A stretch of DNA of 52,283 nucleotides from a virus, in IMG/VR virus record IMGVR_UViG_3300006121_000010, positions 1 through 52,283 of that record; one strand, given 5' to 3'. Made by a program: the position numbers and the translations under genes. This document shows, piece after piece, positions 22,396 through 40,023 of this stretch. Positions within the stretch are counted from its first letter, which is position 1. Each line of letters opens with the position of its first letter. The notes under the pieces are model-generated. The model was given only the letters and a program-made list of their open reading frames with translations. It made no database searches and had not been told where the DNA came from.

Positions 22396-25041
22396 ATGAG
22401 AGCAAAACAATTTCTTGAACTTTACGAAGCACAGCAGCAATTATTTGAAGTGGAAATGTCTCCTTCAAATTTAAGAAAACTTGCCAAAGGCATTGAAGGT
22501 GCCAAAGTTGGTATTGAATTTGAAATGGTTGTTCCAAACGTAAGTATAGAAAACAATGACGATGATGATGATGAAGTGAATTTTCCGGAACCAGAAATGA
22601 ATAACCTATATGAACCTGCAAGAAGCATAGATGACATTGTTGAGTTCTTTGATAACCCTGGTTACAATGACTCACGCACAATCACCAGACTTAGAAACAT
22701 ATTAGAGACTAAATACCGAGAATGGGCTAAGCAGTTCGTTGATAAACAATGGGACAAGAATGGAAAAGAATATCTTCTAAATTGGATTAGAAAAAATGTT
22801 AGCCCAAACAAAATTGCTGATTATTTAGATTTACCCGAAGATTTGTTAGGTGATCGCATTCCTTCTAAGGAAGATTATGAAGAAGTAGCGTATGAAGAAT
22901 GGATGCGCCCCGGCAATGCGGCTGGACATAATTATTATGATGCGGCATATGAATCATTTCGCGACGGTGATGTATTGCCTAATTATTATTATGATGAAGA
23001 TGATGAAGACTCTGATCCGGACGAAAATAAAGAATATATATTTGGTTTTGACAGCGATGATGCCGATGATGCTGATGAAGAAACATTCTTAGAAAGTCTC
23101 GGAATCAATGATATGGAAGATGTGTATCATAACTCATTGAATAGCAATCATGTATTATCATGGCCAAGCTGGACTGATCCACAACCTGAATATAACAGTA
23201 GTAGTAGTTCTTCTTCTGGCGGATCAGAATCAATACAAGATACCGCATTAGGGTTCATGAAGGCTCTCGGCTATGATTCAATTGCATATTCTACTTCATA
23301 TCACGGAACATATTATAAATGGGACGGTAACGATTGGGAATATTATGGTAATAAAAAACCAAATGATTGTTATGCGGTTGAGCCGGATACCAGCATAACA
23401 AAAAAGTCCGATGAGGCAGGTTTGGAGTTTGTGAGTCCACCACTTCCTCCAGAACAAATTATGGCAGATATTAAAAATATAAAAACATGGGCTAATCGCA
23501 TTGGAGCCTATACTAATAAATCTACTGCCATTCATACTAATGTTAGCGTTCCTAATTATGATATAGGAAAAGTTGACTATGTTAAACTTGCTCTATTATC
23601 TGGCGACAAATATGTCTTAGATCAGTTTGGTCGGACATTTAATGATTATACCAGTTCTTCACTAGATATTATCAAAAATAGATCATCTCGGTTATCTAAT
23701 GAACAAGTAGAAAAGTTGTTGGATAAACTAAAAAACAACGTGGAAGAAATAGCCAGCAATGAAATTCATGGACCATATTCAATGAAAAAAATGGTATCTG
23801 TTAATACCGGCGATCCGGCTGGTTACAATAAGAAAAGCGGTTATGTAGAGTTTCGTGCTCCGGGTGGCGATTGGCTTGGGACTAACTATGAAAAAATTGA
23901 GAATACGATTCTAAGATATATCGTCGCTCTTGATGCTGCCGGTAATCCTGAAAAATACAAACGTGAATATACTAAAGCGTTGTATAAAATACTAAAACCC
24001 AAGACTGCCACAGATAACATGAGTCTATTTGCTCAATATATGGCTGGTAATATTACCAAAGAAGCATTAGTAAGTAAACTTAAGGTTAAGAAAAAACCTT
24101 CACAAACAAACGATAAAATTGCTTCCACACAGTCAGGTGAAGATGAAACTATGTATAGATTCAGCACTCGTGATGGTTCAGTTGCGCCTGCTTATGCATC
24201 TGGTTCTGATCCAATGGAAGCATTTGATAGATTAACTGCACGTAATGCTGTATGGAGAACTATGCCTATTAGTAATGTTCTTACTCATGTTGCTGAACCC
24301 AGTCGAAGACAAACTCCTCCTGATGTTCAACAATTATCATCACCTGAACCTGATTCAATACCTGAATTAACCCGTGAATATCAACAGTGGTGTGAGCAAC
24401 AAGGTCTTCCATATGTGGCAACAGAATATCAGGACTTTGATGAACTAACCGATGCGCAACGTGATTGGATAATGCGCTTTAATGTTCGCTGGTCGGCTGC
24501 AGAAGAAGCGCGTGATGCGCCCCAACAACAATCATCTTCCGAAAGAAGATTGTATTCAGTAAGAAATACAGACACAGGTGACGTAATGCAAGTTTTTGCA
24601 GATAGCCCCCTTAACGCAATGATCGGTGCAAGAAGTGAAAATCCCGACTTCCGTAATGCTTCTCTTCATGCAGCAATAACTGCACCTGAACCAGATCAAA
24701 CTCCCCGCCACACAGAAGGCGAATCATTATATCGGGTGACCAATAATAACACTGGTGAGCAAATAACTATTGCCGCAGGTTCATTACAAACTGCATATGG
24801 CAGAGCGCAAAGAAACAATCCATCATGGCAAGGCTCCATACTGACTGCCCGTCAGATTGGCTCTGATGAAATTAGTCCAGAATCTCCGACATATGATGTG
24901 CGTGATACAGCAGGAACAATACATACATTACAAATACAAGCCAACAACGCCGATGAAGCCAGAAGAATAGCAAGATTACGTTATCCCGAACTTGACAGTC
25001 TTCCGGACACCAGACTTCTTGCAACAAGAAGATCATCATAA
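22396..25041 (+). CDS. Amidoligase-like protein with C-terminal repeat modules (paralogue B)
   Basis: An 881-residue paralogue of the preceding protein. The first 34 residues are almost identical to it in protein and DNA, while the rest is clearly diverged, so the leader is under special constraint or was recently converted. Core motifs: GIEFEMVVPN (about 38-47), LEFVSPPLPP (about 341-350), IHTNVSVPNY (about 378-387) and YVEFRAPGGDW. The C-terminal third holds four 45-50-residue modules, each a Y-x-(V/F)-x-x-x-(D/N)-(T/G) strand followed by an alanine-rich helix. It has its own late promoter. Predicted amide-bond ligase of unknown substrate, possibly capsid-packaged. Confidence 0.65.
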   Translation: MRAKQFLELYEAQQQLFEVEMSPSNLRKLAKGIEGAKVGIEFEMVVPNVSIENNDDDDDEVNFPEPEMNNLYEPARSIDDIVEFFDNPGYNDSRTITRLRNILETKYREWAKQFVDKQWDKNGKEYLLNWIRKNVSPNKIADYLDLPEDLLGDRIPSKEDYEEVAYEEWMRPGNAAGHNYYDAAYESFRDGDVLPNYYYDEDDEDSDPDENKEYIFGFDSDDADDADEETFLESLGINDMEDVYHNSLNSNHVLSWPSWTDPQPEYNSSSSSSSGGSESIQDTALGFMKALGYDSIAYSTSYHGTYYKWDGNDWEYYGNKKPNDCYAVEPDTSITKKSDEAGLEFVSPPLPPEQIMADIKNIKTWANRIGAYTNKSTAIHTNVSVPNYDIGKVDYVKLALLSGDKYVLDQFGRTFNDYTSSSLDIIKNRSSRLSNEQVEKLLDKLKNNVEEIASNEIHGPYSMKKMVSVNTGDPAGYNKKSGYVEFRAPGGDWLGTNYEKIENTILRYIVALDAAGNPEKYKREYTKALYKILKPKTATDNMSLFAQYMAGNITKEALVSKLKVKKKPSQTNDKIASTQSGEDETMYRFSTRDGSVAPAYASGSDPMEAFDRLTARNAVWRTMPISNVLTHVAEPSRRQTPPDVQQLSSPEPDSIPELTREYQQWCEQQGLPYVATEYQDFDELTDAQRDWIMRFNVRWSAAEEARDAPQQQSSSERRLYSVRNTDTGDVMQVFADSPLNAMIGARSENPDFRNASLHAAITAPEPDQTPRHTEGESLYRVTNNNTGEQITIAAGSLQTAYGRAQRNNPSWQGSILTARQIGSDEISPESPTYDVRDTAGTIHTLQIQANNADEARRIARLRYPELDSLPDTRLLATRRSS

Positions 25042-27242
25042 TGAGAGCAAATGAATTCATAACAGAGTCATCGGGAGTAAGACTCAAAGATTTAGCCACT
25101 GTGAAAACTAATTTTCCGGATGCCGATTTCTGGCTTCAGCGCAAAGGTAGCGAGAAGTCTGTAGGCACACCAACCAAAGAGTTTTCACCAGAAAATATCG
25201 GCATCAAGGTAACGGCTACTGATGTTCTTGATGCAAGATATCTGTATTACATGATGCAGCATATTCACAACATTGGATATTGGAAACAGTTTGCGAGTGG
25301 TGCATTGAGACTAGTCAATCTTCCATTACAACATGTTGCCAATCTTCCTCTTGGTATGAATGAATCTTTAAATGAAGATGAAAATGTTCAAATAAAAACT
25401 GACCTAACTTATACCGATAGCTATCAGGGACAGGCAGACGGATTCATACTTGCATCTGCTAACGGTAAATCACCATGGGCGGATGAAGGAAATGGCTATT
25501 GTCCTAATGCAGTTGGTGGATTGGATTTTAGTATCTACGAAGGCAAGGCATTAATCAAAATGGTGCAGGTTAAGCCCGAATATCAACGCATGGGAATCGG
25601 ATTGGCTTTAGTAAAAAGACTTGAACAAGAAGTTGGTAAGGGAAACATTGACTGGGGGATGATGACCGACACCGGAAAAGTATTACATGATAAGTATCAG
25701 AATTTAGATGAGGCGTTGCCAACTTGGGCTAAAAAAGGTGAGTTTATAATTGAGTCAATCGGACCTGATACGATCTTTAATCAGGTGAAAAAAATTCACC
25801 ATACCTTCCGAGATATAGAAGAAGGTGATTTACCTGACCGTATCTATTGGTTTAGTGAGTACAAGAAAAGTGAACTCCCGCTATCACTGCTTTATTTACA
25901 TGAATTTTTTGTTGATGAGCAATTGGTAGATGATTATGTAAAACTAATCCAATCTTCACCCAATACAATGCCGCCTATTGTATATGATCCTATCGCTGGT
26001 TCAATCATTGACGGTAATCATAGAGCCAATGCTTATGCTAAATTAGGCTATGACACTATACCCGCATACGTTGGGTTAACAAAATCTGACAGTTACGGTG
26101 AGCGTGAAAACGAAATTGACGAAGCATTTCCTTCTTGGGCTAAAAAAGGTGCATTGGCAGCAGGCGGCGCGGCTGCATTGGCGGCTGGTGGTGTAGCACT
26201 AAGGCATGCACAAGACGATAAGCCTCAAGTCAGATTTGAACTCCCAAATGCTAAATCAGCAGAGAACGCACTCCGCCAAGATGCAAAAATTCTCGCTCAT
26301 ACTATGTGGGGAGAAGCAAGAGACCAAGGCATTGATGGTATGATTGCCATCGGCAACGTCATAAATAATCGTGCCAAGGATACGAAACATGCAAGAATGT
26401 TTGGACAAGGCATCAAAAATATTGCAACCAAACACAAGCAATTTAGTTGCTGGAATCCCAATGATCCAAACTTTAAGTATGCTAAAGAAATGGAAAAAAT
26501 TGATCACATCGTCAACACAAAGCGCGCGCCGAACAACGAAGACTTCAATAAATGGTTATCAGAGTTTAAAAATACCGGAGAGTTTCTAGATTATAAAAAA
26601 TGGCGTAAGAGTTTAGAACTGGCAACTAAAATTCTGTCTGGTCAACTTCCTGATCCAACTCATGGAGCAGTGTATTATCACACTAAAAACGTTCATCCTG
26701 AATGGGCAAAGAGTATGAAAAAAATAGGCTCACTTGGTCAGCACGTTTTTTATTCTTTACCTACGGCTATAAAAGAAACTCATGAATTAGACGAATACAA
26801 AGTGGACAATGAAAATGGTTTGGGTCAAGTTCCATACAATGCTAATGTGGATTATATGGGATTACGAGTTTTAATGAAACCGAGTATATTTTTGAAACTT
26901 GCTCACAAATTAGAAAATCCCAGAAGCGTTGATCATATCGTGAATCACATTAAACAAGGTGGCGCATTGGGTTCTCCATTTTTGTCCATAGACATTCCCC
27001 GTGAATGGGAAGAGGGCGATTTCAAACATGATGCCAGAGTAAGCGGACACGAAGGACGCAATCGCATGATGGCTATTCAGCAAGTTGAAGGCGATGATCC
27101 AGTTGAAGTTCACCTATTTCCGCGTGGAGGAATGAGAGCCAGACATCTTACGTCAGAAATTATCAAGCATTTACAAGATAGTATGTTTGGACAAGACGGA
27201 AACTATGTGTGTGGAAATTTATTCCAATTAATGCAAAAATAA
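25041..27242 (+). CDS. Multidomain packaged polyprotein: GNAT, ParB-like, SleB-type cell-wall hydrolase
   Basis: A 733-residue protein starting with MRANEFITES. Domains in order: unknown (10-112); GNAT acetyltransferase (about 113-224; KPEYQRMGIGLALV); ParB-like (about 239-361; IIDGNHRANAYAKLG); SleB/Hydrolase_2-type cell-wall hydrolase (about 395-575; HTMWGEARDQGIDGMIAIGN, then AVYYHT and the H-P-E-W region); and an unknown C-terminal domain (586-733). Each border carries an (I/L)-x-E site: I-T-E-S at 7-10, L110-N-E-D, L222-D-E-A, I236-I-E-S, I359-D-E-A and L583-D-E-Y. Two of these are followed by near-repeats (ALPTWAKKG, AFPSWAKKG). It is likely cut by the prohead protease into separate virion proteins. 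Confidence 0.75.
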   Translation: MRANEFITESSGVRLKDLATVKTNFPDADFWLQRKGSEKSVGTPTKEFSPENIGIKVTATDVLDARYLYYMMQHIHNIGYWKQFASGALRLVNLPLQHVANLPLGMNESLNEDENVQIKTDLTYTDSYQGQADGFILASANGKSPWADEGNGYCPNAVGGLDFSIYEGKALIKMVQVKPEYQRMGIGLALVKRLEQEVGKGNIDWGMMTDTGKVLHDKYQNLDEALPTWAKKGEFIIESIGPDTIFNQVKKIHHTFRDIEEGDLPDRIYWFSEYKKSELPLSLLYLHEFFVDEQLVDDYVKLIQSSPNTMPPIVYDPIAGSIIDGNHRANAYAKLGYDTIPAYVGLTKSDSYGERENEIDEAFPSWAKKGALAAGGAAALAAGGVALRHAQDDKPQVRFELPNAKSAENALRQDAKILAHTMWGEARDQGIDGMIAIGNVINNRAKDTKHARMFGQGIKNIATKHKQFSCWNPNDPNFKYAKEMEKIDHIVNTKRAPNNEDFNKWLSEFKNTGEFLDYKKWRKSLELATKILSGQLPDPTHGAVYYHTKNVHPEWAKSMKKIGSLGQHVFYSLPTAIKETHELDEYKVDNENGLGQVPYNANVDYMGLRVLMKPSIFLKLAHKLENPRSVDHIVNHIKQGGALGSPFLSIDIPREWEEGDFKHDARVSGHEGRNRMMAIQQVEGDDPVEVHLFPRGGMRARHLTSEIIKHLQDSMFGQDGNYVCGNLFQLMQK

Positions 27243-27693: not shown

Positions 27694-28167
27694 ATGTCTA
27701 ATAAACCCACTATGACCATTGACCAAGATGGACATAAAGAATGGCGTCTGGATGGCAAACTCCATCGCGAAGATGGACCTGCTTTTGAATATGCAGATGG
27801 TACTAAGAAATGGTATCTGAATGGCAAACTCCATCGTGAAGATGGGCCTGCTGTTGAATATACAAATGGCGAGAAGCAATGGTATCTAAATGGAAAACTC
27901 CATCGCGAAAATGGACCCGCTATTGAATATGCAAATGGCACCAAGATATGGTACCTGAATGGCAAACGCCATCGCGAAGATGGACCTGCTGTTGAATATG
28001 CAGATGGTTCCAAGCGTTGGTATTTAAATGACAAACGCCATCGCGAAGATGGACCTGCTGTTGAATATGCAGATGGTTCCAAGTGGTGGTATCTAAATGG
28101 AGAAAAAATAGATCAATTGGTTTTCTGGGTTACCACTAAAGAGCGCGAGCAACAGAAAACTTCTTGA
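27694..28167 (+). CDS. HREDGPA-repeat protein (MORN-like), 5 repeats
   Basis: A 157-residue paralogue of the protein at 679-1008, with five 23-residue HRE(D/N)GPA repeats and the same C-terminal cap (DQLVFWVTTKER). The DNA period is 69 bases and units differ by only a few bases, so unequal recombination between copies is likely. Function unknown; MORN-like repeat proteins of this type occur in phages and in bacterial toxin-antitoxin-like loci. The next promoter's -35 box overlaps its stop codon. Confidence 0.75.
   Translation: MSNKPTMTIDQDGHKEWRLDGKLHREDGPAFEYADGTKKWYLNGKLHREDGPAVEYTNGEKQWYLNGKLHRENGPAIEYANGTKIWYLNGKRHREDGPAVEYADGSKRWYLNDKRHREDGPAVEYADGSKWWYLNGEKIDQLVFWVTTKEREQQKTS
27735..28110 (+). 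repeat. 69-bp in-frame tandem repeats (second locus)
   Basis: Five consecutive 69-base units encode HREDGPA repeats; the fourth and fifth units are almost identical in DNA. They share long identical stretches with the array near 0.7-0.93 kb, 27 kb away. Confidence 0.8.
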
Positions 28168-28614: not shown

Positions 28615-28896
28615 ATGGGAGATATCTTTAAAGTTATTGGTGACGTAGGATTTCCCATTGCCGCTGCATTTGGTGCCGGATATTTTGTATTCCTAACTCT
28701 CAAATTTATTCTTGCAGGAGTTACCAGTAGCGTTAAGAACATGGCTGGTATTATTACTGCACTTGATAACCGCGTAAAAACTATGAATCATGATGTCATT
28801 CGTATTGACACGGTTGTTTCAAACGCGCTTGGGCTAAGTCCTGACGTTGAGCGTATTGGTCGTTCTGACGGAAAAAATGATGCCAGGAGAGATTGA
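28615..28896 (+). CDS. Small single-helix membrane protein, YvrJ-like (copy 1)
   Basis: A 93-residue protein with one N-terminal membrane helix (residues about 10-33, GFPIAAAFGAGYFVFLTLKF) and a helical, probably coiled-coil soluble tail (MAGIITALDNRVKTMNHDV). It is paralogous to the next protein (shared G-F-P-I-x-A-A-x-G-x-G-Y-F-V-F). The layout recalls YvrJ-like and holin-accessory proteins found in phages. It opens the surface module that continues with the curli-like genes, and a ribosome binding site (AAGGTGAGG) precedes the ATG. Confidence 0.6.
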   Translation: MGDIFKVIGDVGFPIAAAFGAGYFVFLTLKFILAGVTSSVKNMAGIITALDNRVKTMNHDVIRIDTVVSNALGLSPDVERIGRSDGKNDARRD

Positions 28897-28983
28897 TAAA
28901 AATACACTTAGCAATTAAATAACGATCCACTTTACAGTCCATACTCGCAATAAAAAAGATGTATTAAATAAGAAGAAAAATAA

Positions 28984-29322
28984 ATGAGCATAGAAATAGC
29001 AGAATTGGTCAACAAGTATGGGTTTCCTATCATTGCCGCTGGTGGAATGGGCTATTTTGTATTTCATGTATGGGAATGGGCAACTAAAGAAGTTAAACCA
29101 GTTCTCAGTGAGACAAATACTGTCCTGATTGCGTTAATTGATCGTATACGTATGTTGGATAACGATCTAATACGTCTCAATCAAAAAGTCAATACCGTAT
29201 TGCATTTGCGCGGAAAAACGATTGAGCATGAACGTGTTGAGGCTGAAAAAATTATTAATCAGCCACGAGTTCGCCATAAAGACACGGAAGAATCTCAAGA
29301 AGCAGCATCAGGCAATAGTTAG
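28984..29322 (+). CDS. Small single-helix membrane protein, YvrJ-like (copy 2)
   Basis: A 112-residue paralogue of the preceding protein: a membrane helix at residues about 12-33 (GFPIIAAGGMGYFVFHVWEW), then a helical region (TNTVLIALIDRIRMLDNDLI) and a charged tail. It ends eight bases before csgF. Together the pair may anchor or regulate the secretion module, but this is inference from position. The 87-base gap between the two copies holds nothing recognisable except A/T-rich DNA. Confidence 0.6.
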   Translation: MSIEIAELVNKYGFPIIAAGGMGYFVFHVWEWATKEVKPVLSETNTVLIALIDRIRMLDNDLIRLNQKVNTVLHLRGKTIEHERVEAEKIINQPRVRHKDTEESQEAASGNS

Positions 29323-29330
29323 GTAAAATA

Positions 29331-29786
29331 ATGAAAACCATAACAACACTAATGCTTTTTGGTATGCTGTTTATGAGTGAAACTGCGCATGCTGATCAAA
29401 TAGTTCAGCAATTCAAAGACCCATCATTCAATGGTATTAACTGGTCTAACCATGTTTTATCAATTGAATCAATAGAGGCGTCCAATAAATCAGCAAATAC
29501 GAATGCACTTGCATCTGCACAGGCGGCTGCGGCAAATGCGGCTGCTAACACACCTCTTGCAAAATTTGTGTCTCTATTTGAATCTCAGGTATATTCACAA
29601 TTGGCAACGCAATTATCAAATAATCTGTTTTCAACAAGTGGACCATCATCAAATGCTGGAACATTTAACTTGGCTGGAAATAGTATTAGTTACGTAAAAA
29701 CAAACAATGATGTTACATTGACTGTAGTAGATACTTCCGGAAACAAAACTATAGTTACAGTTCCGATAGCAACATTTGCATTTTGA
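29331..29786 (+). CDS. csgF: CsgF-like curli assembly factor
   Basis: A 151-residue secreted protein with a Sec signal peptide (cleavage expected after AHA, residue 21). The mature N-terminus, QFKDPSFNGINWSNHVL, aligns with the CsgF region (F-R-N-P-N-F-G-G) that inserts into the CsgG channel. The C-terminal half (TLTVVDTSGNKTIVTVPI) matches the CsgF strand hairpin. E. coli CsgF is 138 residues. It would cap the CsgG pore and help nucleate curli fibres at the outer membrane. It lies 11 bases before csgG, the same order as the csgF-csgG end of the bacterial csgDEFG operon. Confidence 0.85.
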   Translation: MKTITTLMLFGMLFMSETAHADQIVQQFKDPSFNGINWSNHVLSIESIEASNKSANTNALASAQAAAANAAANTPLAKFVSLFESQVYSQLATQLSNNLFSTSGPSSNAGTFNLAGNSISYVKTNNDVTLTVVDTSGNKTIVTVPIATFAF

Positions 29787-29797
29787 AGGAATAGAGT

Positions 29798-30643
29798 GTG
29801 AATAAACAGATTGCTTTACCATTATTAATTCTATCAGCTTTATCCCTTTCTGGATGTATTGGTGCTATTAGTCCACGACTAAACAAAGACGTTGAAATCA
29901 TGCGTGAGAAGGCAAGAATAGAAGGTTTCGCAAATCCAAAAATATTTGTTAATTTACCTGAATTGGATGGTCCTGCTATTCCTATTGCAGTATATAGTTT
30001 TACAGATAAAACTGGCCAACGTAAAAATTCATCCAGTGTTAGTAGTTTTAGCACGGCAGTTACTCAAGGTGCAGATGCATACTTAGTAAAAACTCTCTCA
30101 GATGTAGGAAACGGAAAATGGTTTAAGCCTGTTGAGCGCGTGGGCATTGAAAGCCTTATAAAAGAGCGTCAGCTTATACGTCAAATGCGTGAATTGGAAT
30201 TCGGTGATAAGGCACCTCCATTGCCACCTCTTATGGTGTCAGGTCTTATTATTGAAGGTGGAATTATTGATTATAATAGTGACACCAAAACTGGAGGGAA
30301 CGGGGTTCGCTACCTTGGTATAGGTCCGAATACTCAATATAGCCAAGATATGGTTGTCATAAATATGCGTCTCGTGTCTACGCAAACTGGGGAAGTCTTA
30401 GATAGCGTAACCGTAACAAAAACTATTATCTCAACATCAGAAGGTTTAACTGCATTTAAATTTTTTGATTTAGGAACGCATGCTTTTGAACTTGACGCTC
30501 AACAGACAGCGAATGAACCGGGAAGTTATGCTATTCGTTCAGCAATTGAAGTTGGTGTAGTAGAACTAATCAAACATGGTGAAAAGAAAAAATTATGGCA
30601 CTATAAAACTAATACGTTACCAACCAATAAGGAATTAAAATAA
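29798..30643 (+). CDS. csgG: CsgG-like outer-membrane curli secretion lipoprotein
   Basis: A 281-residue lipoprotein. The GTG start follows GAAGGA; the signal peptide ends in the lipobox LSGC with C20 as the lipidated residue. Matches to CsgG run along the length: PIAVYSFTDKTGQRK, SFSTAVTQGADAYLV, GKWFKPVERVGIESL, VSGLIIEGGIIDYNSDTKTG, VRYLGIGPNTQYSQD (the transmembrane/constriction region), MRLVSTQTGEVLDSV and EPGSYAIRSAIEVGV. E. coli CsgG is 277 residues and forms a nonameric secretion pore. Its stop overlaps the next start (TAATG), so the pore and its likely substrate are coupled. No CsgE homologue is visible. Confidence 0.93.
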   Translation: MNKQIALPLLILSALSLSGCIGAISPRLNKDVEIMREKARIEGFANPKIFVNLPELDGPAIPIAVYSFTDKTGQRKNSSSVSSFSTAVTQGADAYLVKTLSDVGNGKWFKPVERVGIESLIKERQLIRQMRELEFGDKAPPLPPLMVSGLIIEGGIIDYNSDTKTGGNGVRYLGIGPNTQYSQDMVVINMRLVSTQTGEVLDSVTVTKTIISTSEGLTAFKFFDLGTHAFELDAQQTANEPGSYAIRSAIEVGVVELIKHGEKKKLWHYKTNTLPTNKELK

Positions 30644-31464
30644 TGAAAGCAATAAAAATAATAAAATACGCATTAATTCTTAGTTCGCTATTTGTATCCG
30701 ATGCTACATTTGCTCAGTCACTTACGGCGGAATCTAATCCAACAAGTGTCCCATCTGCCGTTTTACCAACTCTACCAAATCCTCCTGCAATTATCGCCTC
30801 ATCTCCTAATGAGCAGGCAGCATCTACGTTGGACACAACTAACCAAGTATATATCAACCAGTCAGGATTTAATGTCAATGTTAATATCCAACAAACTGGT
30901 GTATCAGACTTGATTGGAAGCCTATCATATCCAACTTTTCTACGTGGAGACAATCAAGTATTAACCGTGATTCAGACTGGAAACACAAACAATCTACAGT
31001 TAGGAATTATTGGTAACATTGGCGCAGGTGCCGGAACTACAGCAACTATTCAACAACTCGGCAATGGCAACTATGCTAATATTCAATGCGGAACTGGCAA
31101 AAACGATCCAAATTGTAATGGATTAAATTTGAATGATAAATTTAATGGTAATTTCAATACTCTTAACTTTCATGGATCAGCCGCAAATATCACTCAAACA
31201 GTTGATATTGAAGGTAACAACAACTACACTAATATCTTTTCCAACTCTCCAAATTCTTCACAGACATTATTGTTCAATGGTGAAAACAACACAATTAACG
31301 TAAATCAGACTGATGCAGGTGGAAACTATGGTCACAGTTTATTTGCAAATGTCATCGGAAGCAATAATACGCTTACTGTTCAACAATATGGTGCTTCAGA
31401 AACCGTAATCAATATTCAAAGCACTGGCTCAAATGGCATCTTTAATATTAAAACCGGTCATTAA
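30643..31464 (+). CDS. Curlin-like secreted repeat protein (probable CsgG substrate)
   Basis: A 273-residue secreted protein with a Sec signal (cleavage after TFA, residue 24) and a proline/serine-rich segment to about residue 65. The rest is a degenerate curlin array with units such as INQSGFNVNVNIQQTG, LTVIQTGNTNNLQLG, ATIQQLGNGNYANIQ and NTLTVQQYGASETVINIQ, each with the S/T-x-x-(Q)-x-G-x-x-N-x-x-x-(I/V)-x-Q pattern of CsgA/CsgB strand-turn-strand repeats. Units are less regular than in E. coli CsgA. It probably forms amyloid-like fibres or a cell-surface coat exported by CsgG. Only one such gene is present. Confidence 0.8.
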   Translation: MKAIKIIKYALILSSLFVSDATFAQSLTAESNPTSVPSAVLPTLPNPPAIIASSPNEQAASTLDTTNQVYINQSGFNVNVNIQQTGVSDLIGSLSYPTFLRGDNQVLTVIQTGNTNNLQLGIIGNIGAGAGTTATIQQLGNGNYANIQCGTGKNDPNCNGLNLNDKFNGNFNTLNFHGSAANITQTVDIEGNNNYTNIFSNSPNSSQTLLFNGENNTINVNQTDAGGNYGHSLFANVIGSNNTLTVQQYGASETVINIQSTGSNGIFNIKTGH

Positions 31465-32602
31465 TTTAATTGGATTACTATGCTTGCTAATTGCCACCCC
31501 GGCGTTAGCAAGCATAGGGTCTATTACCAATTTCAAAGGTGCTGGACAAATTAAACGTGGTTCCGCATCCATTCCTGCTAATCAAAATTCTGGCATTGAG
31601 AAAATGGACATTGTATCTACTAACTCGCAAGGTAAGATAAAAATAACATTCATTGATGCAACTACTGTCAACATTACTGAAAACAGTAGACTCGTGATTG
31701 ATGATTTTGTGTTTGATAGTAAAAATTCATCAAAGGGTAAATTGGGTCTTAAAGTGGCGTTAGGAACTATAAGATATACATCCGGCGCGCTGGCTCATGG
31801 AAATCCATCAGGCATTAACATACGCACTCCTACGGCAACTATAGCGGTTCGTGGAACAGATTTTGTGATGTCCGTTGACGAAACTGGAGAATCTACGGTT
31901 ATTCTTGTTCCAAATTGCTACGATGATAAAGACATAACAAAAACTGAGTTTGATTGCTCATCCGGTGTTATTGAAGTCATAACTGCGGCTGGAATAGTAA
32001 CTTTGAACAAGCCATTTCAGGCTACTGTAGTCCAGAATTCATTTATACCACCATCACCTCCTATAAAAATTACTACTGCACTAAAAGTAATGAATAATAA
32101 TATACAGATTTCTCCGCTTGCAACTGATGATGGAAAAAGTTTAATTAAATTTGCAAAGAATGCAGCCACAAAATATGCCAACCCATCTAAGGCAATAGCA
32201 GATTCAAATAAAGACCCCACAACAAATTCAAATGATAGCGCCGAAGAAGCAGAACTCGCCGTGCAACAAAAATCTTCAAGTCAAATCAATGATCAAAAAG
32301 ATACACTTATACCCAAAATTACTGTTTCTGGTAGAGTGATATATACGAATGTATCACCTACCTATGTCAAACAGGTTCAGGAGGGGTGGGCATATGCGCG
32401 TATGTCAAGTGATAAAAATCAAGTCGTTGCAATATGGGTTGATCTTAAAACCGATACACAAATTATTTCGTCACAAGAAGGATTAATTGACTTCTACGAT
32501 TTTGTGAATGCTAAGTATCCAACTTCGGGATCAGGTAAAGCAACTGGTAACATAAATATAATACAAAATGGAGCAGTTCCACCAACTAATAGCGGAAAAT
32601 AA
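31433..32602 (+). CDS. FecR-domain periplasmic/secreted protein
   Basis: A 389-residue protein that begins inside the end of the curlin-like gene (32-base overlap). This start gives a complete Sec signal (cleavage after ALA, residue 26); the next ATG, at 31479, would destroy it. The mature protein starts with a FecR domain of the outer-membrane/secreted type: GAGQIKRGSASIPANQNSGI, TFIDATTVNITENSRLVIDD, then IRTPTATIAVRGTDF, the hallmark of the family. After about residue 200 the chain is low-complexity, with a C-terminal domain (ITVSGRVIYTNVSPTYV). FecR-domain proteins of this type are often encoded next to CHASE2 cyclases, as here. Confidence 0.85.
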   Translation: MASLILKPVINLIGLLCLLIATPALASIGSITNFKGAGQIKRGSASIPANQNSGIEKMDIVSTNSQGKIKITFIDATTVNITENSRLVIDDFVFDSKNSSKGKLGLKVALGTIRYTSGALAHGNPSGINIRTPTATIAVRGTDFVMSVDETGESTVILVPNCYDDKDITKTEFDCSSGVIEVITAAGIVTLNKPFQATVVQNSFIPPSPPIKITTALKVMNNNIQISPLATDDGKSLIKFAKNAATKYANPSKAIADSNKDPTTNSNDSAEEAELAVQQKSSSQINDQKDTLIPKITVSGRVIYTNVSPTYVKQVQEGWAYARMSSDKNQVVAIWVDLKTDTQIISSQEGLIDFYDFVNAKYPTSGSGKATGNINIIQNGAVPPTNSGK

Positions 32603-32616
32603 TAAAGGATAGAGTC

Positions 32617-34674
32617 ATGAAAAAATTAAAAAAAATACTAATAAATCCGTGGTTGGCTCTCCTGACATTTGCAATATTGCTTATAGTTAAACTATCAAAT
32701 CCATATTTAATAGATGCAATGAAACTTAAATTTTATGACTATCTAATGTTAAGTAAACCAATTCACAGTGATCAGATTGTAATTGCAAATATTGGTGAAA
32801 GGGCATTAGAGAAATACGGACAATATCCATTTCCCAGAGATACATATGCAAAAATCGTCAACAATCTATATGATAATCATCATGCTGGTTTAGTTGGCAG
32901 CACCATAATGTTTCCAGAAAAGGATAGGTTTGGCGGAGATGATGTGTTTGCTAAGTCGCTTACAGAGCATCCAGTGGTTCTAAGTCAAACTGTTTCTGCC
33001 GATTGCACACGCAACAATAGTTCAACCCGTAAAACTGGCGTTGCAATAGTAGGTGATGGCAAGCCAACAGAATTTTTACCAAATTATCCATGTGTTCTTG
33101 ATAATATTTCAGTGTTGCAAGAGTCTGCTGTAGGTGTTGGTATAACATCAACGCTTCCTGAAACCGATGGTGTTGTTCGTCGCGTTCCTATGCTGGCAAC
33201 ATCAAAAGGAGATTATTATCCTTCGTTTGCATTAGAAATGCTACGTGCTGCTACAGGTGATCCAAGTTATCAGGCAAAAATAAATGAGACCGGCATTGAG
33301 GCAGTTCGTATTCCACAGTTTGGTAAAATTTCCACTGACGAATATGGTCGCGTGTTTGTTAATCCGAATTATGTATTCTCATCGTTTGAAGTAGGCGGGA
33401 ATATTCCGCATCTCGGTGGTAAGATCGTTCTACTCGGTGTGACTGCGAACGGTGTTGCAAACCCTGTAGCAACGCCGTCTGGTGCCCGAATGCCCCATCA
33501 GGTTCAGGCCAGCATTCTTCAGACTCTGATAAATCAGGATTCTGTATCAATTCCGAATTGGGTTGAATTGGTTGATCTTCTGGCATTTTTTATTCTTTCA
33601 GTTGCTGTTATTGGAATGTCAAACTTACGTTATTCTATTATATGGATCGCAATATTATTAACTGGATATATTTATGCTCCCTTCTATATGTATATACATA
33701 ATAAAATATTATTTGATGTGTCATTCAATGTACTGGCAGTTCTGATCATTTATATACATGTTTATTCAGTAAAGTTCATCAGTGAATTTCTACAGAAACA
33801 ACAAATCAAGAAACAGTTCGGCACATATCTAAGTCCTGATCTGGTTGCCCAATTGCAACGTCAGCCTGAATTGCTGCAATTGGGTGGCACTGAACAAGAA
33901 CTTTCAATCATGTTTACGGATGTTCGTGGATTCACGACGATTTCAGAACATTATGGTAAGAACGTGCAGGGCTTGACAAAAATTATGAATCGGTATATGA
34001 CTGCTATGACCAAAGCAATTTTAGAAAATAAAGGCACTTTGGACAAATACATCGGAGACGCTCAGATGGCGTTTTGGAATGCGCCGGTCAGCAATGAACA
34101 ACATGCTCTGGATGCCGTGCGTACTGCCTTTCAGATGTTAAAATCTCTTGAGGAATTTAATTATGAAGTCACCAAAGAAGGAGTCCCTGCTTTTGGAATG
34201 GGTCTGGGAATCAATACTGATACCGTTGTTGTTGGTAATATGGGAAGTGATCAGCGTTTTGACTATACTTGCTTGGGAGACGGTGTTAATCTTGCGTCAC
34301 GGTTGGAAGGGCAGTCAAAGCCTTATGGAGTCAGAATCATCATTGGTCCAAAGACCGCACAATATGTCAAAGACCGATACCAAATCGTAGAACTTGATCT
34401 TATTGCCGTTAAAGGTAAAACTGAGCCAGTAAGAATATATACGGTTTTGGAACAATTTAAAAAGATTGATGAAAATGCACATAATATGATTTTAAGTGCT
34501 TATAGGCTCGGTGCATGGAAAAGAGCACTGGTCATGATACAAACGCGTGGAAACATGTGGAATGGGCAACTGGATAATTATTACAAGATGCTTGAAGAGC
34601 GGATTTTAGAAATTCAAAAAAATCCGCCCGCTCCCAAAGATTGGGACGGGGTATATCGCGCTACATCAAAATAA
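32617..34674 (+). CDS. CHASE2-domain membrane adenylate cyclase (class III)
   Basis: A 685-residue inner-membrane sensor enzyme: an N-terminal membrane helix (about 12-28), an extracytoplasmic CHASE2 domain (about 30-310; GERALEKYGQYPFPRDTYAK), three membrane helices (about 315-390) and a class III cyclase domain (about 425-610). Catalytic features are intact: metal aspartates D435 (FTDVRGFT) and D481 (YIGDAQMAF), adenine-selecting K477 and the D-Y-T of 549-551, and transition-state residues N558 and R562 (VNLASR). It is therefore predicted to make cAMP from ATP in response to an envelope signal. The final 70 residues are helical. A good AAAGGAT ribosome binding site is present. Confidence 0.9.
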   Translation: MKKLKKILINPWLALLTFAILLIVKLSNPYLIDAMKLKFYDYLMLSKPIHSDQIVIANIGERALEKYGQYPFPRDTYAKIVNNLYDNHHAGLVGSTIMFPEKDRFGGDDVFAKSLTEHPVVLSQTVSADCTRNNSSTRKTGVAIVGDGKPTEFLPNYPCVLDNISVLQESAVGVGITSTLPETDGVVRRVPMLATSKGDYYPSFALEMLRAATGDPSYQAKINETGIEAVRIPQFGKISTDEYGRVFVNPNYVFSSFEVGGNIPHLGGKIVLLGVTANGVANPVATPSGARMPHQVQASILQTLINQDSVSIPNWVELVDLLAFFILSVAVIGMSNLRYSIIWIAILLTGYIYAPFYMYIHNKILFDVSFNVLAVLIIYIHVYSVKFISEFLQKQQIKKQFGTYLSPDLVAQLQRQPELLQLGGTEQELSIMFTDVRGFTTISEHYGKNVQGLTKIMNRYMTAMTKAILENKGTLDKYIGDAQMAFWNAPVSNEQHALDAVRTAFQMLKSLEEFNYEVTKEGVPAFGMGLGINTDTVVVGNMGSDQRFDYTCLGDGVNLASRLEGQSKPYGVRIIIGPKTAQYVKDRYQIVELDLIAVKGKTEPVRIYTVLEQFKKIDENAHNMILSAYRLGAWKRALVMIQTRGNMWNGQLDNYYKMLEERILEIQKNPPAPKDWDGVYRATSK

Positions 34675-35602: not shown

Positions 35603-37294
35603 GTGTCATATGTTGATGCCATCCTTTCAATAAAGGATGATAAAATACATGTGGTAGAGCGAAGCCCTGAAGGCAATCGGATATACAAAGAATATCCAAC
35701 AAATTATGTTTTTTATTACCCTGACCCAAAGGGAAAGCATCGTTCTATTTTTGGTAATCCACTTAGTAGATTTTCAACTCGCAAGAGAAATGAGTTTGAA
35801 AAGGAAAAGCGGATTCATGGTAACAAAAAACTATTTGAAAGTGATGTTAATGCGGTATTTAGATGCTTGGCAGACAACTATCTCAATGTAGAACCTCCCA
35901 AGTTACATACTTGCTTTTTTGATATTGAGACGGACTTTGATCCTGAAAAGGGTTTCAGTCCGACAGACGATCCATTTAATCCAGTCACGGCGATTTCTTT
36001 GTATTTGGATTGGAAAGATCAGTTAATCACTCTTGCTATTCCACCAAAACACATGACCGATGAAACGGCGCAAGAGTTAGTGCGTGACTTTCCTAACACG
36101 TTTCTGTTTCGTTCTGAAATTGAAATGTTTGAGACATTCTTCCAACTGATTGAAGATGCCGATATTCTCACTGGGTGGAACTCAGAGGGATACGATATTC
36201 CTTATTGTGTAAATCGGGTAACCCGAATTATGTCTAAGGATGATACACGTAAGTTCTGCCTTCTTGGTCAACTTCCGAAGATTCGCACATATGAACGATT
36301 TGGTAAAGAAGAAACTACCTACGATTTAGTCGGGCGAGTTCATATGGACTATTTGCAGTTATATAAAAAGTATAACTACGAATCGCGCCATAGTTATTCT
36401 CTTGATGCAATTGGTGAAATGGAAGTAGGTGAACGTAAGACTCAATATGAGGGTTCACTTGACCAGTTATACAATCAAGATTTCAAAACCTTTATTGAAT
36501 ATAACCGACAGGATACTATGCTTATGGTGAAGATTCATCGTAAGACTAAGTTTCTTGAATTAGCAAACGCACTGGCACATGAAAACACAGTGTTGTTACC
36601 AACGGCTATGGGTTCGGTGGCGATGATCGAAATGGCGGTCATCAATGACGCACATTCTCGTGGATTTGTCGTTCCCGATAAGAATAGGAAAGATGGACCA
36701 AGCGATGACCAACAGGCGGCTGGTGCATATGTTGCCACACCACAGGTTGGAATGCACGAATGGGTGGGAGCAGTGGATATTAACTCACTGTATCCTTCTG
36801 ACATTCGTGCATTGAACATGTCACCAGAAACCATCGTTGCTCAGGTTCGTCAGACTCTTACCGAACAGTATATGGCTGACAAAACCAAAAAAATCAAGCA
36901 AAGCAAAAAACAGAGCAAAAGAAAGGATAGCACTACTGACAAAGAAATAACTGCTGCTTTGTTATGGGAAAATCTTTTTGGATCGCTTGAATATACTGCG
37001 ATCATGAATCAGGAACGTGGCACTATATTGATCGTTGACTATGAAGACGGAAGATCAGTAGAAATGTCTGCTGCTGAAATCTGGAAGATGATATTTGACA
37101 GCAATAATCCATATATTCTCTCTGCGAATGGCACGATCTTTACCTATGAAAGGGAAGGAGTCATCCCCGGTTTGCTATCAAGATGGTATTCAGAACGTAA
37201 GGCTACACAAAAGCAAGCCAAGACGGTCAGAACTTTAAACTCTGGTATTGAAATCAATTCAAAATTAGCCGAAAAACTTAAAAAAATACTTTAA
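35603..37294 (+). CDS. 43: DNA polymerase (gp43) N-terminal part: exonuclease and palm motif A
   Basis: A 563-residue N-terminal portion of a T4-type family B replicative polymerase, starting at GTG directly after the upstream stop. The N-terminal domain is followed by the 3'-5' exonuclease (FFDIETDFD with D107 and E109; TGWNSEGYDIPY; YNRQDTML) and palm motif A (VDINSLYPSDI, D392). The chain then stops (EKLKKIL) before the fingers, where an HNH endonuclease gene follows. The remainder is encoded from 38493. Split gp43 proteins that assemble into an active enzyme are known in Aeromonas T4-like phages, so the two parts probably work together. Confidence 0.88.
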   Translation: MSYVDAILSIKDDKIHVVERSPEGNRIYKEYPTNYVFYYPDPKGKHRSIFGNPLSRFSTRKRNEFEKEKRIHGNKKLFESDVNAVFRCLADNYLNVEPPKLHTCFFDIETDFDPEKGFSPTDDPFNPVTAISLYLDWKDQLITLAIPPKHMTDETAQELVRDFPNTFLFRSEIEMFETFFQLIEDADILTGWNSEGYDIPYCVNRVTRIMSKDDTRKFCLLGQLPKIRTYERFGKEETTYDLVGRVHMDYLQLYKKYNYESRHSYSLDAIGEMEVGERKTQYEGSLDQLYNQDFKTFIEYNRQDTMLMVKIHRKTKFLELANALAHENTVLLPTAMGSVAMIEMAVINDAHSRGFVVPDKNRKDGPSDDQQAAGAYVATPQVGMHEWVGAVDINSLYPSDIRALNMSPETIVAQVRQTLTEQYMADKTKKIKQSKKQSKRKDSTTDKEITAALLWENLFGSLEYTAIMNQERGTILIVDYEDGRSVEMSAAEIWKMIFDSNNPYILSANGTIFTYEREGVIPGLLSRWYSERKATQKQAKTVRTLNSGIEINSKLAEKLKKIL

Positions 37295-37296
37295 GT

Positions 37297-37304
37297 GATA
37301 AATA
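37297..37304 (+). promoter_or_regulatory. Late promoter (GATAAATA) for the HNH endonuclease
   Basis: Begins three bases after the polymerase fragment stop codon and overlaps the 5' arm of the hairpin at 37301-37321. The expected start near 37310 lies in the loop. Confidence 0.65.
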
Positions 37305-37321
37305 CCCTATACGGAGGTATT
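37301..37321 (+). promoter_or_regulatory. RBS-sequestering hairpin of the HNH endonuclease
   Basis: AATACC (37301-37306) pairs with GGTATT (37316-37321). The GGAGG ribosome binding site (37313-37317) straddles loop and stem, and the ATG follows directly at 37322. This mirrors the T4 I-TevI control element. Confidence 0.6.
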
Positions 37322-38500
37322 ATGAACTTAATTGATATAGAAACCATTATGAGAGACATGTGCAGTATAAAACATGAACACTCATTTAAACGATACCTAA
37401 AATTGATTGAAATTTACAGAAAATTAAATTTATCCAAGAAAAGTTTTGGAAAAGGTGAGATTGAAGCGCATCACATTCTTCCAAGTAAAATATGGCAAGA
37501 ATATAAAAAAGAAAAATGGAATATAGTGAACCTACCCGTCCGTGCTCATGTTATCGCGCATTATCTACTTTATAAATTTTTACCAAAATCGGAGTGTGTG
37601 TTTGCGTTTAATCAGATGCACAGAGTTTCCGTAAAAACAGGAAAGTTAAACGCCAGATTATATGCCAAAGCGAGAATTGAATTGGCGCAGTTGGTAAGCA
37701 AAGTCAATTCCGGCAGAAAATGGTCAGATGAACAGCACAAATTGCATAGAAAAATTCATTGTGGTAAAAACACATATCGCAATATCACATCTGGAGAGTG
37801 TAAAAAGTTTATAGTAGGAGATGAACCGGCAGGATGGGAGCCGTTCCAGACTGGTCGGACAAAGAGTATTGCAGCAAAAGAAAAAATGGGAGAGTCAATG
37901 TCTGGAAGAATATGGCAATATCATTCGGAATCTAAAGAGGTTAAATTTGCAAACTTTTTAATAGATGGGTTTACGAAGGGAATACCGCCATGGTTTGTCT
38001 ATGATCATGCAGAAATTACGAAAACCTACAAATGGGCATATAATCCGGATACAAACGAAGTTATTCGGTGCGCAGAAATTGATATTCCCGTTGGGTTTGA
38101 ATTGGGGCGGGACCCGTCTTATGTTAACAAAGGATTTGAAAAAATAAATCAGTCCGGTTTATGTAGGATGCTGGACATTGAAGACAAATGTTATACGCTA
38201 GTATCAGAAGATATTTTACCTAACCCACGATATGTTAAACATGGTGCTTGTGTTGACGATATTTATGTGATATTATACAAAGACAGTATTTATTATTCTT
38301 GGGTTGATGTAGAACGAGAACACCCAGAATTGCCGAAAATGAACAAAAAGAGAGATATCTCTCTACTTGACTACGTTGTGCCTAAAAAGCATTTTAACCA
38401 AACACCAGATAGGCAACGTTTTTGTGAAATGCATCATGGTAAAACATTTGGAGAAATTGGAATATCTATGCGAAAACTAAAGGAAAATGACAATGATTGA
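37322..38500 (+). CDS. HNH homing endonuclease inserted in the polymerase gene
   Basis: A 392-residue protein. The HNH/zinc-finger-like nuclease core is near residues 47-85 (IEAHHILPSKIW, WNIVNLPVRAHVIAHYLL). Downstream lie NUMOD-like DNA-binding segments (NTYRNITSGECKKFIVGDE, GESMSGRIW) and a long C-terminal region with helix-turn-helix character (GKTFGEIGISMRKLK). Start chosen at ATG 37322 after GGAGG; the frame is open from 37295. It separates the two halves of the DNA polymerase gene, and its last eight bases overlap the start of the second half. It likely cuts polymerase genes lacking the insertion. Confidence 0.85.
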   Translation: MNLIDIETIMRDMCSIKHEHSFKRYLKLIEIYRKLNLSKKSFGKGEIEAHHILPSKIWQEYKKEKWNIVNLPVRAHVIAHYLLYKFLPKSECVFAFNQMHRVSVKTGKLNARLYAKARIELAQLVSKVNSGRKWSDEQHKLHRKIHCGKNTYRNITSGECKKFIVGDEPAGWEPFQTGRTKSIAAKEKMGESMSGRIWQYHSESKEVKFANFLIDGFTKGIPPWFVYDHAEITKTYKWAYNPDTNEVIRCAEIDIPVGFELGRDPSYVNKGFEKINQSGLCRMLDIEDKCYTLVSEDILPNPRYVKHGACVDDIYVILYKDSIYYSWVDVEREHPELPKMNKKRDISLLDYVVPKKHFNQTPDRQRFCEMHHGKTFGEIGISMRKLKENDND

Positions 38501-40023
38501 TACAGAATATATCAACACCCTAATAAAGACAGAAGACGTTGATGGTCTTGCCGCGTATATGAAAAAATATAAATTGCGATTATCCGCAGACAACAAAATT
38601 ATTGGTGATGCGGATGTTGTTGCTGAATCTTATGCTTACTGGGATAAAAGACAACTCGTGCGAAAAATTCTCCTAAACTCTGCGTTAATTCCTAGCGCCC
38701 TTGTGTAGTGATACACACTGAATAACCCGTCTAATTGCTGGAAACTCTCATTGCGTAATGGCAGAGACAATCAGCAGCCAAGTAGAAATAGATTATTTCT
38801 AAAGGTTCAACGACTAGCCCATAGTGGCGTAAGCAATAAGCCAATGATTGCTGAAACGGCGGGGGTCTATACTTAATAGATCGTGATATAGTCTGTTCTA
38901 ATATGAAAATATTAGCAGCATTTTAAATGCGGATGTGAAATTGCTAATCACATTGAACACTAAAGATGGTGCACTTCTAAACGAACACTGCCGATTCTAT
39001 GATAAACGAATCGGTCAGTCAGTAACTCTTTCTGGTCGTCAAATTGTTCGCCACATGATGAGCAAGATCAATGAGATTATTGAAGGGACTTATTCTCACG
39101 AAGGAAGTTCAATCGTATATGGAGATACTGACTCCTGCTATTTCTCTGCATATCCAATTCTTAAGAGTCAAATTGATTCTGGTGAAGTTGAATGGGACAA
39201 AGACACCTGCGTTGCATTGTATGATAACATAGCAGAACAGACCAATGAAAGTTTTCCTGCATTCATGGAGAAAGCATTTCATTGTCCACGCAAGAATGGT
39301 GCAGTCATTAAGGCTGGTCGCGAATTGATTGGTGATCGTGCTATCTTTATTGCCAAGAAGATTTATGCCATCAATATTTTTGATCTTGAAGGCGATAGAC
39401 TTGATCTGATTATTGACGAGAATGATGCTATCAAAAAAGGCGTAAATATCGGTTACGGTAAGGTAAAGGCTATGGGTGTCGCATTGAAGCGGTCGGATAC
39501 GCCAAAATACATTCAAGAGTTTTTAATGGATGTATTGTGTATGGTAATTCAACAATGCAAACAGCGCGAGGAAGTTATTCAAAAAATAAAAACGTTTAAA
39601 ACCTATCTTTCTGGTCAAGATAGTTGGACCAAAGGTAATCCCAAGTCTGTAAATAAACTAACGTATCATACTGCAAAATTTGAAAAAACTGGACAGTGTG
39701 GAGTTGGTCATGCCAAGGCAGCAATCAATTACAATTATCTGCGTAGAATGCACGGTGATAACTACAGCCAAAAAATTGTTGATGGCATGAAGGTAATTGT
39801 ATGTTCACTTAAACCCAATCCTCTCGGATTTACATCTATTGCATACCCAACCGATGAATTAAGATTGCCTCAATGGTTTTTGGATTTGCCATTTGATGAC
39901 AAGGACATGGAACGCAAATTGATAGATGAAAAAATTGAGAACTTGCTCGGCGTCCTAAAATGGGACTTACGAATTGATACTGATACAAACAGCACCTTCG
40001 CAGATTTGTTCAATTTTGGTTAA
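38493..40023 (+). CDS. 43: DNA polymerase (gp43) C-terminal part, interrupted by a group I intron
   Basis: Read as join(38493..38685, 38966..40023), giving 416 residues in one frame (1251 bases). ATG 38493 has AAGGA nine bases upstream and overlaps the HNH stop. Exon 1 ends AYWDKRQLVRKILLNS, the fingers helix; splicing after T38685 to A38966 creates N-S-A-Y-G-A-L-L-N, the conserved motif B region of family B polymerases. Exon 2 then gives RFYDKRIGQSVTLSGR, the catalytic YGDTDS (palm motif C, at about 39118-39135) and the thumb. Without splicing, exon 1 runs into a stop at 38708. With the part at 35603-37294 the enzyme totals about 979 residues (T4: 898). Confidence 0.85.
38686..38965 (+). other. 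Group I intron (280 nt, no internal ORF)
   Basis: Supports: (1) the flanking exons rejoin in frame to a conserved polymerase motif; (2) the 5' exon ends in T and the intron ends in G, as group I splicing needs; (3) P1 can form between exon GCGT (38682-38685) and intron GCGC (38695-38698) with a U-G wobble at the splice site; (4) the core carries GGTTCAACGACTA (38804-38816) and GATATAGTC (38885-38893), and GACTA/TAGTC pair as P7. It has no open reading frame of useful length, so mobility would need an endonuclease from elsewhere, perhaps the HNH gene 186 bases upstream. Confidence 0.85.

Follow-up and report, generated by a model that had tools for sequence, protein, structure and literature searches.

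Seven consecutive genes at positions 28615-34674 of an IMG/VR virus record (IMGVR_UViG_3300006121_000010; 52,283 nucleotides, analyzed over its whole length and referred to here as the window) encode the parts of a curli-type secretion system together with a FecR-domain protein and a CHASE2 adenylate-type cyclase. We interpret these genes, with a probability of roughly 0.6, as a phage-encoded type VIII secretion module that exports a curlin-like fibre and in which FecR and the CHASE2 cyclase serve as a sensor of the envelope or of secretion. This interpretation draws on the gene identities and domain architecture, an intact cyclase active site, synteny, purifying selection, the pairing of two small proteins (Y1 and Y2) and a curlin-like tail on the FecR protein. 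The core gene set has been published before. Our additions are the placement in a jumbo-phage clade, a corrected identity and the pairing of Y1 and Y2, and the FecR tail; the jumbo-phage context, the pairing and the tail also go beyond the original prediction for this DNA.

Gene content and conservation of the module

Gene calling placed all seven open reading frames (ORFs) on the plus strand, nearly end to end:

28615..28896, plus strand: Y1, 93 amino acids (aa), with one hydrophobic segment (residues 11-29), a conserved charged stretch and a C-terminal DARRD; matches phrog_18771 (E 4e-33)
28984..29322, plus strand: Y2, 112 aa, a paralogue of Y1 with the conserved stretch LIALIDRIRMLDNDLIRLNQKV and a weak hydrophobic stretch; matches phrog_18771 (E 1e-31)
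29331..29786, plus strand: CsgF-like extracellular chaperone; Pfam CsgF PF10614 (E 8e-15) and phrog_35372 (E 2e-31)
29798..30643, plus strand: CsgG-like outer-membrane curli pore lipoprotein; Pfam CsgG PF03783 (E 6e-49), lipobox LSGC
30643..31464, plus strand: CUR1, a curlin-repeat protein; Curlin_rpt matches in its family, stacked short strands modelled from residue 66
31433..32602, plus strand: FecR-domain protein; Pfam FecR (E 7e-12), hydrophobic N-terminus, curlin-like C-terminal repeat
32617..34674, plus strand: CHASE2 class III adenylate-type cyclase; Pfam CHASE2 (E 5e-36) and cyclase (E 1e-20), with catalytic residues

The CsgF, CsgG, FecR, CHASE2 and cyclase matches are all above the Pfam cut-offs, which bears out the identities given in the original prediction, and both the CsgG lipobox and the FecR string IRTPTATIAVRGTDF that it pointed to are present in the translations. 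CsgG residues 10-271 align to the solved E. coli CsgG structure 3x2r (E 6e-44). By sequence, the window thus holds CsgG, CsgF and a curlin-repeat subunit of curli (type VIII secretion) systems. Signal peptides had been described as intact, and this stands as far as assessment by eye and hydropathy can carry it: the N-termini of CsgF, CUR1 and FecR contain hydrophobic 11-residue stretches with a mean hydropathy of 2.14, 1.91 and 2.84, respectively.

The assignment of a curlin-like repeat protein holds through the CUR1 family, in which 26 of the 33 aligned members match Curlin_rpt at E<=1 (best 1e-6); CUR1 of the window itself has no Pfam match at this threshold. Modelled on the basis of 33 sequences, the protein consists of 19 stacked short strands, with a mean predicted local distance difference test (pLDDT) score of 81. 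The top row for this model in VIA-align is CsgA (8c50; Z 19.3, root-mean-square deviation 8.6, 212 aligned), yet this is tied with SufB (5awg, Z 18.4), so the model fits curlin without proving it. In many relatives a second curlin, larger and variable in length (median 467 aa among 126 distinct sequences), lies between FecR and the cyclase (for example, at L045:11766-13940); the window lineage is without it.

There is no sign of a chimeric assembly: two other IMG/VR records are 99.995% identical to the window over 18.8 kb that include the module and both flanks. The GC content is even (36-42%). Pairwise comparisons with five relatives, of which L007 and L009 gave identical values and so leave four independent comparisons, yielded, for each of the seven genes, nonsynonymous divergence (dN) of 0.05-0.45 and synonymous divergence (dS) of at least 1.3, in most cases saturated or nearly so. 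By this measure all seven are under purifying selection, with conservation strongest in Y1, Y2, the cyclase and CsgG.

The gene order is shared widely. Two IMG/VR scans seeded with csgG, from each of which the best 80 matches were taken, gave 139 loci; csgF, csgG and curlin are consecutive in 131 of them and csgF-csgG-curlin-FecR in 122. Where at least 5 kb follow csgG, the order csgF-csgG-curlin-FecR is found in 93/96 loci, and the cyclase lies within the locus in 89/96. Together with the same order in the cultured phages HTVC008M and Melnitz, this agrees with the earlier view of the seven genes as one surface module.

Curli genes in phages have been reported several times: CsgF, CsgG and neighbours in pelagimyophages (PMC7029224, 2020), curli genes in Melnitz (PMC9004378, 2022) and in a 180-kb T4-like virus (PMC7198788, 2020), and csgGF in temperate sediment viruses (PMC9636769). 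The available text of PMC9599517 (2022) already describes, for podo- and myoviruses among the pelagiphages, CsgF-CsgG-CsgA/B-FecR-adenylate cyclase with one or two 'histidine kinases' ahead. What the original prediction took as the distinguishing feature of this locus, the complete set including FecR and a cyclase, was therefore known. In HTVC008M (KC465899), as in the window, a pair of small proteins is followed by CsgF, CsgG, curlin, FecR and cyclase (CsgG 50% and cyclase 38% identical to those of the window), but at 147 kb it is far below the clade size and it has a second curlin between FecR and the cyclase. Melnitz (EXVC044M) has the module including FecR and the cyclase according to its record annotation (CsgG 47% and cyclase 37% identical); it differs from the window in being a 141-kb phage and in having a second curlin. 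The E. coli csgBAC-csgDEFG system shares CsgG, CsgF and curlin repeats with the window, whereas the phage version, in which CsgE was not found, adds FecR, the CHASE2-cyclase and Y1/Y2 and has its CsgG in a separate clade.

Jumbo-phage setting and origin of the module

By sequence comparison, the window belongs to an uncultured jumbo-phage clade. It also encodes a clamp-loader, a Clp-like protease and a DNA polymerase split by a group I intron. When this polymerase was searched against phage isolates with tblastn, the best 15 of 2589 matching records were without exception jumbo phages (284-490 kb; several of them are near-identical), among them Phosso (46.8%), PA5oct and Atu_ph07. We compiled a clade set of all 17 distinct fetched records above 200 kb (212-383 kb) and one 110-kb near-identical record. 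These 18 records were picked by CsgG or Y similarity, so that CsgG or Y is present by construction (Y pair in 18/18, CsgG in the 17/17 large records), whereas the polymerase result is independent of this choice: a match was found in 18/18 records, at 53-87% identity in 17 and at 100% in the 110-kb record. Around the module, the gene order of the 360-kb record L009 is that of the window; the exceptions are a second curlin and the repeat protein that precedes the module. A search for the nearest phage DNA, made with 24 kb of the window, gave no match, and a non-exhaustive search of the open-access literature found no jumbo phage with curli; a curli-bearing phage in one of the papers found has 180 kb.

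Within the window, the polymerase gene is split into 35603-37294 and 38935-40023, with the intron (Rfam RF00028, 86.8 bits) at 38676-38915 and a homing-endonuclease ORF at 37295-38500. Upstream of the module, 25041-27242 encodes a 733-aa protein with GNAT-like and ParB-like stretches and a cell wall hydrolase (Pfam Hydrolase_2, E 1e-16). Shortly before the module, 27694-28167 encodes a protein of repeats like GKLHREDGPAVEYADGxKxWYLN, and similar repeat DNA lies at about 704-989. Several of the IMG/VR sample numbers are presumably lakes.

We built a CsgG tree (quick method, midpoint root) in which 80 phage rows, seven Y-bearing contigs from metagenome-assembled genomes (MAGs) and the loci L086 and L087 form one clade (Shimodaira-Hasegawa-like approximate likelihood-ratio test 99), with 71 cellular rows apart. 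L086 is a 6.9-kb genome contig. L087, from Hyphomonas sp. TMED17, has cellular surroundings (TonB receptor plug, FAA hydrolase, alanine racemase), and because its CsgG is nested among the phage-type sequences, transfer may have gone either way. Its locus (L087:7255-13347, NHBW01000006) resembles the window in carrying csgF-csgG-curlin-FecR-CHASE2 cyclase, with the cyclase 45% identical, but differs in its cellular setting and in having no Y1/Y2. In 149 other genomes of its order, the six best listed cyclase matches were at 35-37% identity, with none listed above 37% (E<=1e-80). We rejected cellular FecR-cyclase curli operons as the common ancestor: L087 was the only such operon among 73 bacterial-assembly loci without Y1/Y2, in a search with phage-trained profiles that may miss distant genes and on loci some of which are short.

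The Y1/Y2 pair

Y1 and Y2 are paralogues of about 100 residues that both match phrog_18771, a family of unknown function. They were at first labelled YvrJ-like membrane proteins. The best 19-residue hydropathy is 1.91 in Y1 and 1.13 in Y2 of the window, so the membrane part of the label holds for Y1 and is not clear for Y2. The YvrJ part is not supported: Y1 of the window is below the Pfam cut-off for this family (PF12841; E 0.21, 11.6 bits versus 29.5), Y2 has no match, and the best E-values among 18 Y1 and 21 Y2 members are 0.071 and 0.094. Histidine kinases can be rejected as well, since the 18 Y1 and 21 Y2 gave no HATPase_c or HisKA Pfam match at E<=1 and the window proteins have only 93 and 112 aa. 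We infer from their position that the genes called histidine kinases in PMC9599517 are Y1 and Y2.

The pair is closely linked to the module. Y1 precedes Y2 in 100 of the 105 loci with any Y match (seven MAG contigs counted in), and the pair sits upstream of csgF on the csgF strand or on the opposite strand near the module. Only six of 50,697 phage-isolate records (two species) have Y1/Y2, and the same records carry the csg module; a seventh isolate record with CsgG is a 1.5-kb stretch without annotation. Y-seeded scans added 148 loci, many of which share a contig with another; the cyclase is present in 130 and CsgG in 96, and after removal of repeats these numbers became 92/108 and 69/108. We then searched whole records for 25 of the 52 Y loci without CsgG and for L303, which has it, and CsgG was present in 17/22 records. 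Without L303 the count is 16/21, including 11/11 records of at least 70 kb, and the five misses are fragments of 17.7-63 kb. In the opposite direction, 43 csgG loci have no Y within the locus itself, and record-wide checks of 28 of these revealed Y2 in eight records. At 70 kb or more it was found in 5/7 (one of these matches is partial and lies at the end of its record), and no Y was found in two csgG records of 72.6 and 86.5 kb. These counts point to a strong link between the Y pair and the module, with exceptions possible. A tie to the cyclase rather than to the whole module was considered and rejected, as the cyclase is nearer than CsgG in 65 of the 119 distinct loci having both.

Most curli loci in bacterial assemblies (73/80) are without Y. 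The remaining seven are L084, L085, L088, L114, L138, L141 and L145; of these, L138 and L145 were checked, and both contain genes for phage replication and look like phage contigs binned with bacteria.

Y1 is small, has one hydrophobic segment and shows a weak similarity to the PHROG holin family phrog_4898 (E<=0.1 for 7/18 members, best 2.7e-4), which leaves room for a membrane-perturbing role of Y1/Y2. This bears on lysis timing as a function of the module, in which the CsgG/CsgF pore, or holin-like Y1/Y2, would depolarise the cell and trigger progeny release, as the Melnitz authors proposed for CsgGF (PMC9004378). The odds of this explanation are slightly raised by a gene for D-alanyl-D-alanine carboxypeptidase, a peptidoglycan enzyme (L348:7259-8116, Pfam E 6e-44), which lies within 4.5 kb of Y in 9/169 distinct viral loci. 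Visual inspection of the 22 largest clusters of Y-neighbour genes revealed no recognisable endolysin; Pfam searches with example proteins of 10 of them returned a desaturase, T4 RNase H, unknown domains and the carboxypeptidase. Lytic phages generally need lysis genes, yet Y1/Y2 occur in cultured phages only with the csg module. The lysis proposal also starts, in the available text of PMC9004378, from fibre genes being absent, whereas curlin-repeat subunits are present and conserved, and it leaves FecR and the cyclase unexplained. We consider a role in lysis timing unlikely.

FecR, the CHASE2 cyclase and the function of the module

At its N-terminus, within residues 1-34, the FecR protein has a hydrophobic segment that resembles a signal peptide, and no Pfam domain, and hence no N-terminal cytoplasmic anti-sigma domain, was found ahead of its FecR domain (residues 60-159). 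For these reasons a label of iron or sigma regulator is not earned, and the protein looks exported. Its model (mean pLDDT 74) matches the FecR-type domains 4m0h and 6ovk of anti-sigma regulators (Foldseek E about 1e-4 to 2e-4) and, more weakly, the cell-surface anchoring domain 5ix9 (E 5e-3, template modelling score 0.75 by target). Both this fold and that of CsgG are thus as originally assigned.

The last 50 residues of FecR resemble the curlin repeat. A pattern of spaced glutamines, defined only after the alignment had been seen, occurs in 117 of the 130 complete viral proteins versus 27% of shuffles. With hhalign, the FecR C-terminus aligned to the CUR1 C-terminus at Prob 79 and E 1.6e-5, and two other FecR segments used as controls gave Prob <0.5 and E 0.14-0.82.

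In the cyclase protein, CHASE2 (PF05226) spans residues 20-329 and the hydrophobic segments are at 4-27, 312-337 and 360-378, which places CHASE2 between membrane segments. The cyclase domain also aligns to solved structures and holds D435, K477, D481, N558 and R562, which we take to be the two metal Asp, the base-binding Lys and the transition-state Asn/Arg. Among 203 viral cyclase ORFs of at least 550 aa (142 distinct), D435, K477 and D481 are identical in all and R562 in 202. The transition-state Asn is replaced by Ser in 85/203 and the base-binding Thr by Asp in 85/203. As judged from these residues, the active site is intact, as had been predicted, and cyclic AMP (cAMP) is plausible as a signal. 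In 58 alphaproteobacterial genomes, a FecR domain lies within 4 kb of 16/57 CHASE2 genes versus 0.35 expected by random placement (15/56 without the Hyphomonas curli locus, on which the genome set was centred). Since this is far above chance, it suggests that the FecR-CHASE2 partnership pre-existed.

From these features we infer export, fibre formation, a contact between FecR and CHASE2, cAMP output and a benefit to the phage. During infection, CUR1, CsgF, CsgG and the FecR protein would be exported via the host Sec system, and CsgG would form an outer-membrane pore capped by CsgF. CUR1 would cross this pore unfolded and then stack on the infected cell to form a curli-like fibre. FecR would stay in the envelope, where its curlin-like tail may bind curlin subunits or the fibre base, and would report the state of secretion or of the envelope to the periplasmic CHASE2, upon which the cyclase would make cytoplasmic cAMP. 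As a pair particular to the phage version, Y1 and Y2 would probably be located at the inner membrane. The most likely benefit would be that the infected cell has an altered surface, with an effect on adhesion or superinfection; superinfection defence and aggregation are ideas already found in PMC9599517 and PMC7029224. More tentatively, the genes may form a secretion-sensing circuit in which the FecR tail samples curlin or the fibre base, the CHASE2-cyclase signals and Y1/Y2 couple it to the cell, so that cAMP would follow amyloid export, as a standard feature of the jumbo clade.

Several observations weigh against a fibre-exporting module with such a sensor. Besides the late definition of the glutamine pattern, the FecR tail scores lower against whole CUR1 (hhalign Prob 35, E 4e-4), and the FecR tail of Hyphomonas L087, the sole cellular operon of this type, is without the glutamines, so the likeness to curlin could be convergent or unimportant. 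Foldseek found no match at E<=0.001 for the CUR1 model. The cNMP-binding (cyclic nucleotide monophosphate-binding) domain PF00027 was found in 0/18 clade records. Any cAMP receptor would then be the host's or of another kind, and the earlier proposal of cAMP as the coupled signal keeps the plausibility that the active site lends it.

CsgE was likewise found in 0/18 clade records, with the E. coli positive control detected, which would leave the pore without a gate or with a different one; PMC7029224 calls CsgE non-essential. Its absence from these records would suit an uptake pore, as proposed in PMC7029224 and PMC9599517, in which ungated CsgG admits nutrients or cofactors to the infected cell and curlin is secondary. 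A pore would need neither CsgF nor curlin, yet both flank csgG in the 131 of 139 loci described above, and CUR1 is under purifying selection. We regard uptake as very improbable.

Finally, no clumping of Melnitz-infected cells is reported in the available text of PMC9004378. This observation counts equally against 'sibling capture', in which the exported curlin would serve the progeny, with fibre or debris holding new hosts near virions, instead of coating the infected cell (PMC7029224; a similar idea is given in PMC7198788). The conservation of the curlins would fit this explanation, but it accounts for neither the sensor nor the cyclase, and we think it quite doubtful. We thus retain fibre export with an envelope or secretion sensor as our preferred reading.

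If the module works in this way, infected cells would export a phage-made amyloid and carry a phage-made envelope signal, and the retention of the same set in jumbo and smaller aquatic phages would point to a general benefit. The printed labels 'histidine kinase' and 'ferric citrate regulator' deserve rechecking. The Y1/Y2 pair and the FecR tail provide concrete handles on a question that has stood since at least 2020, namely why phages carry curli genes.

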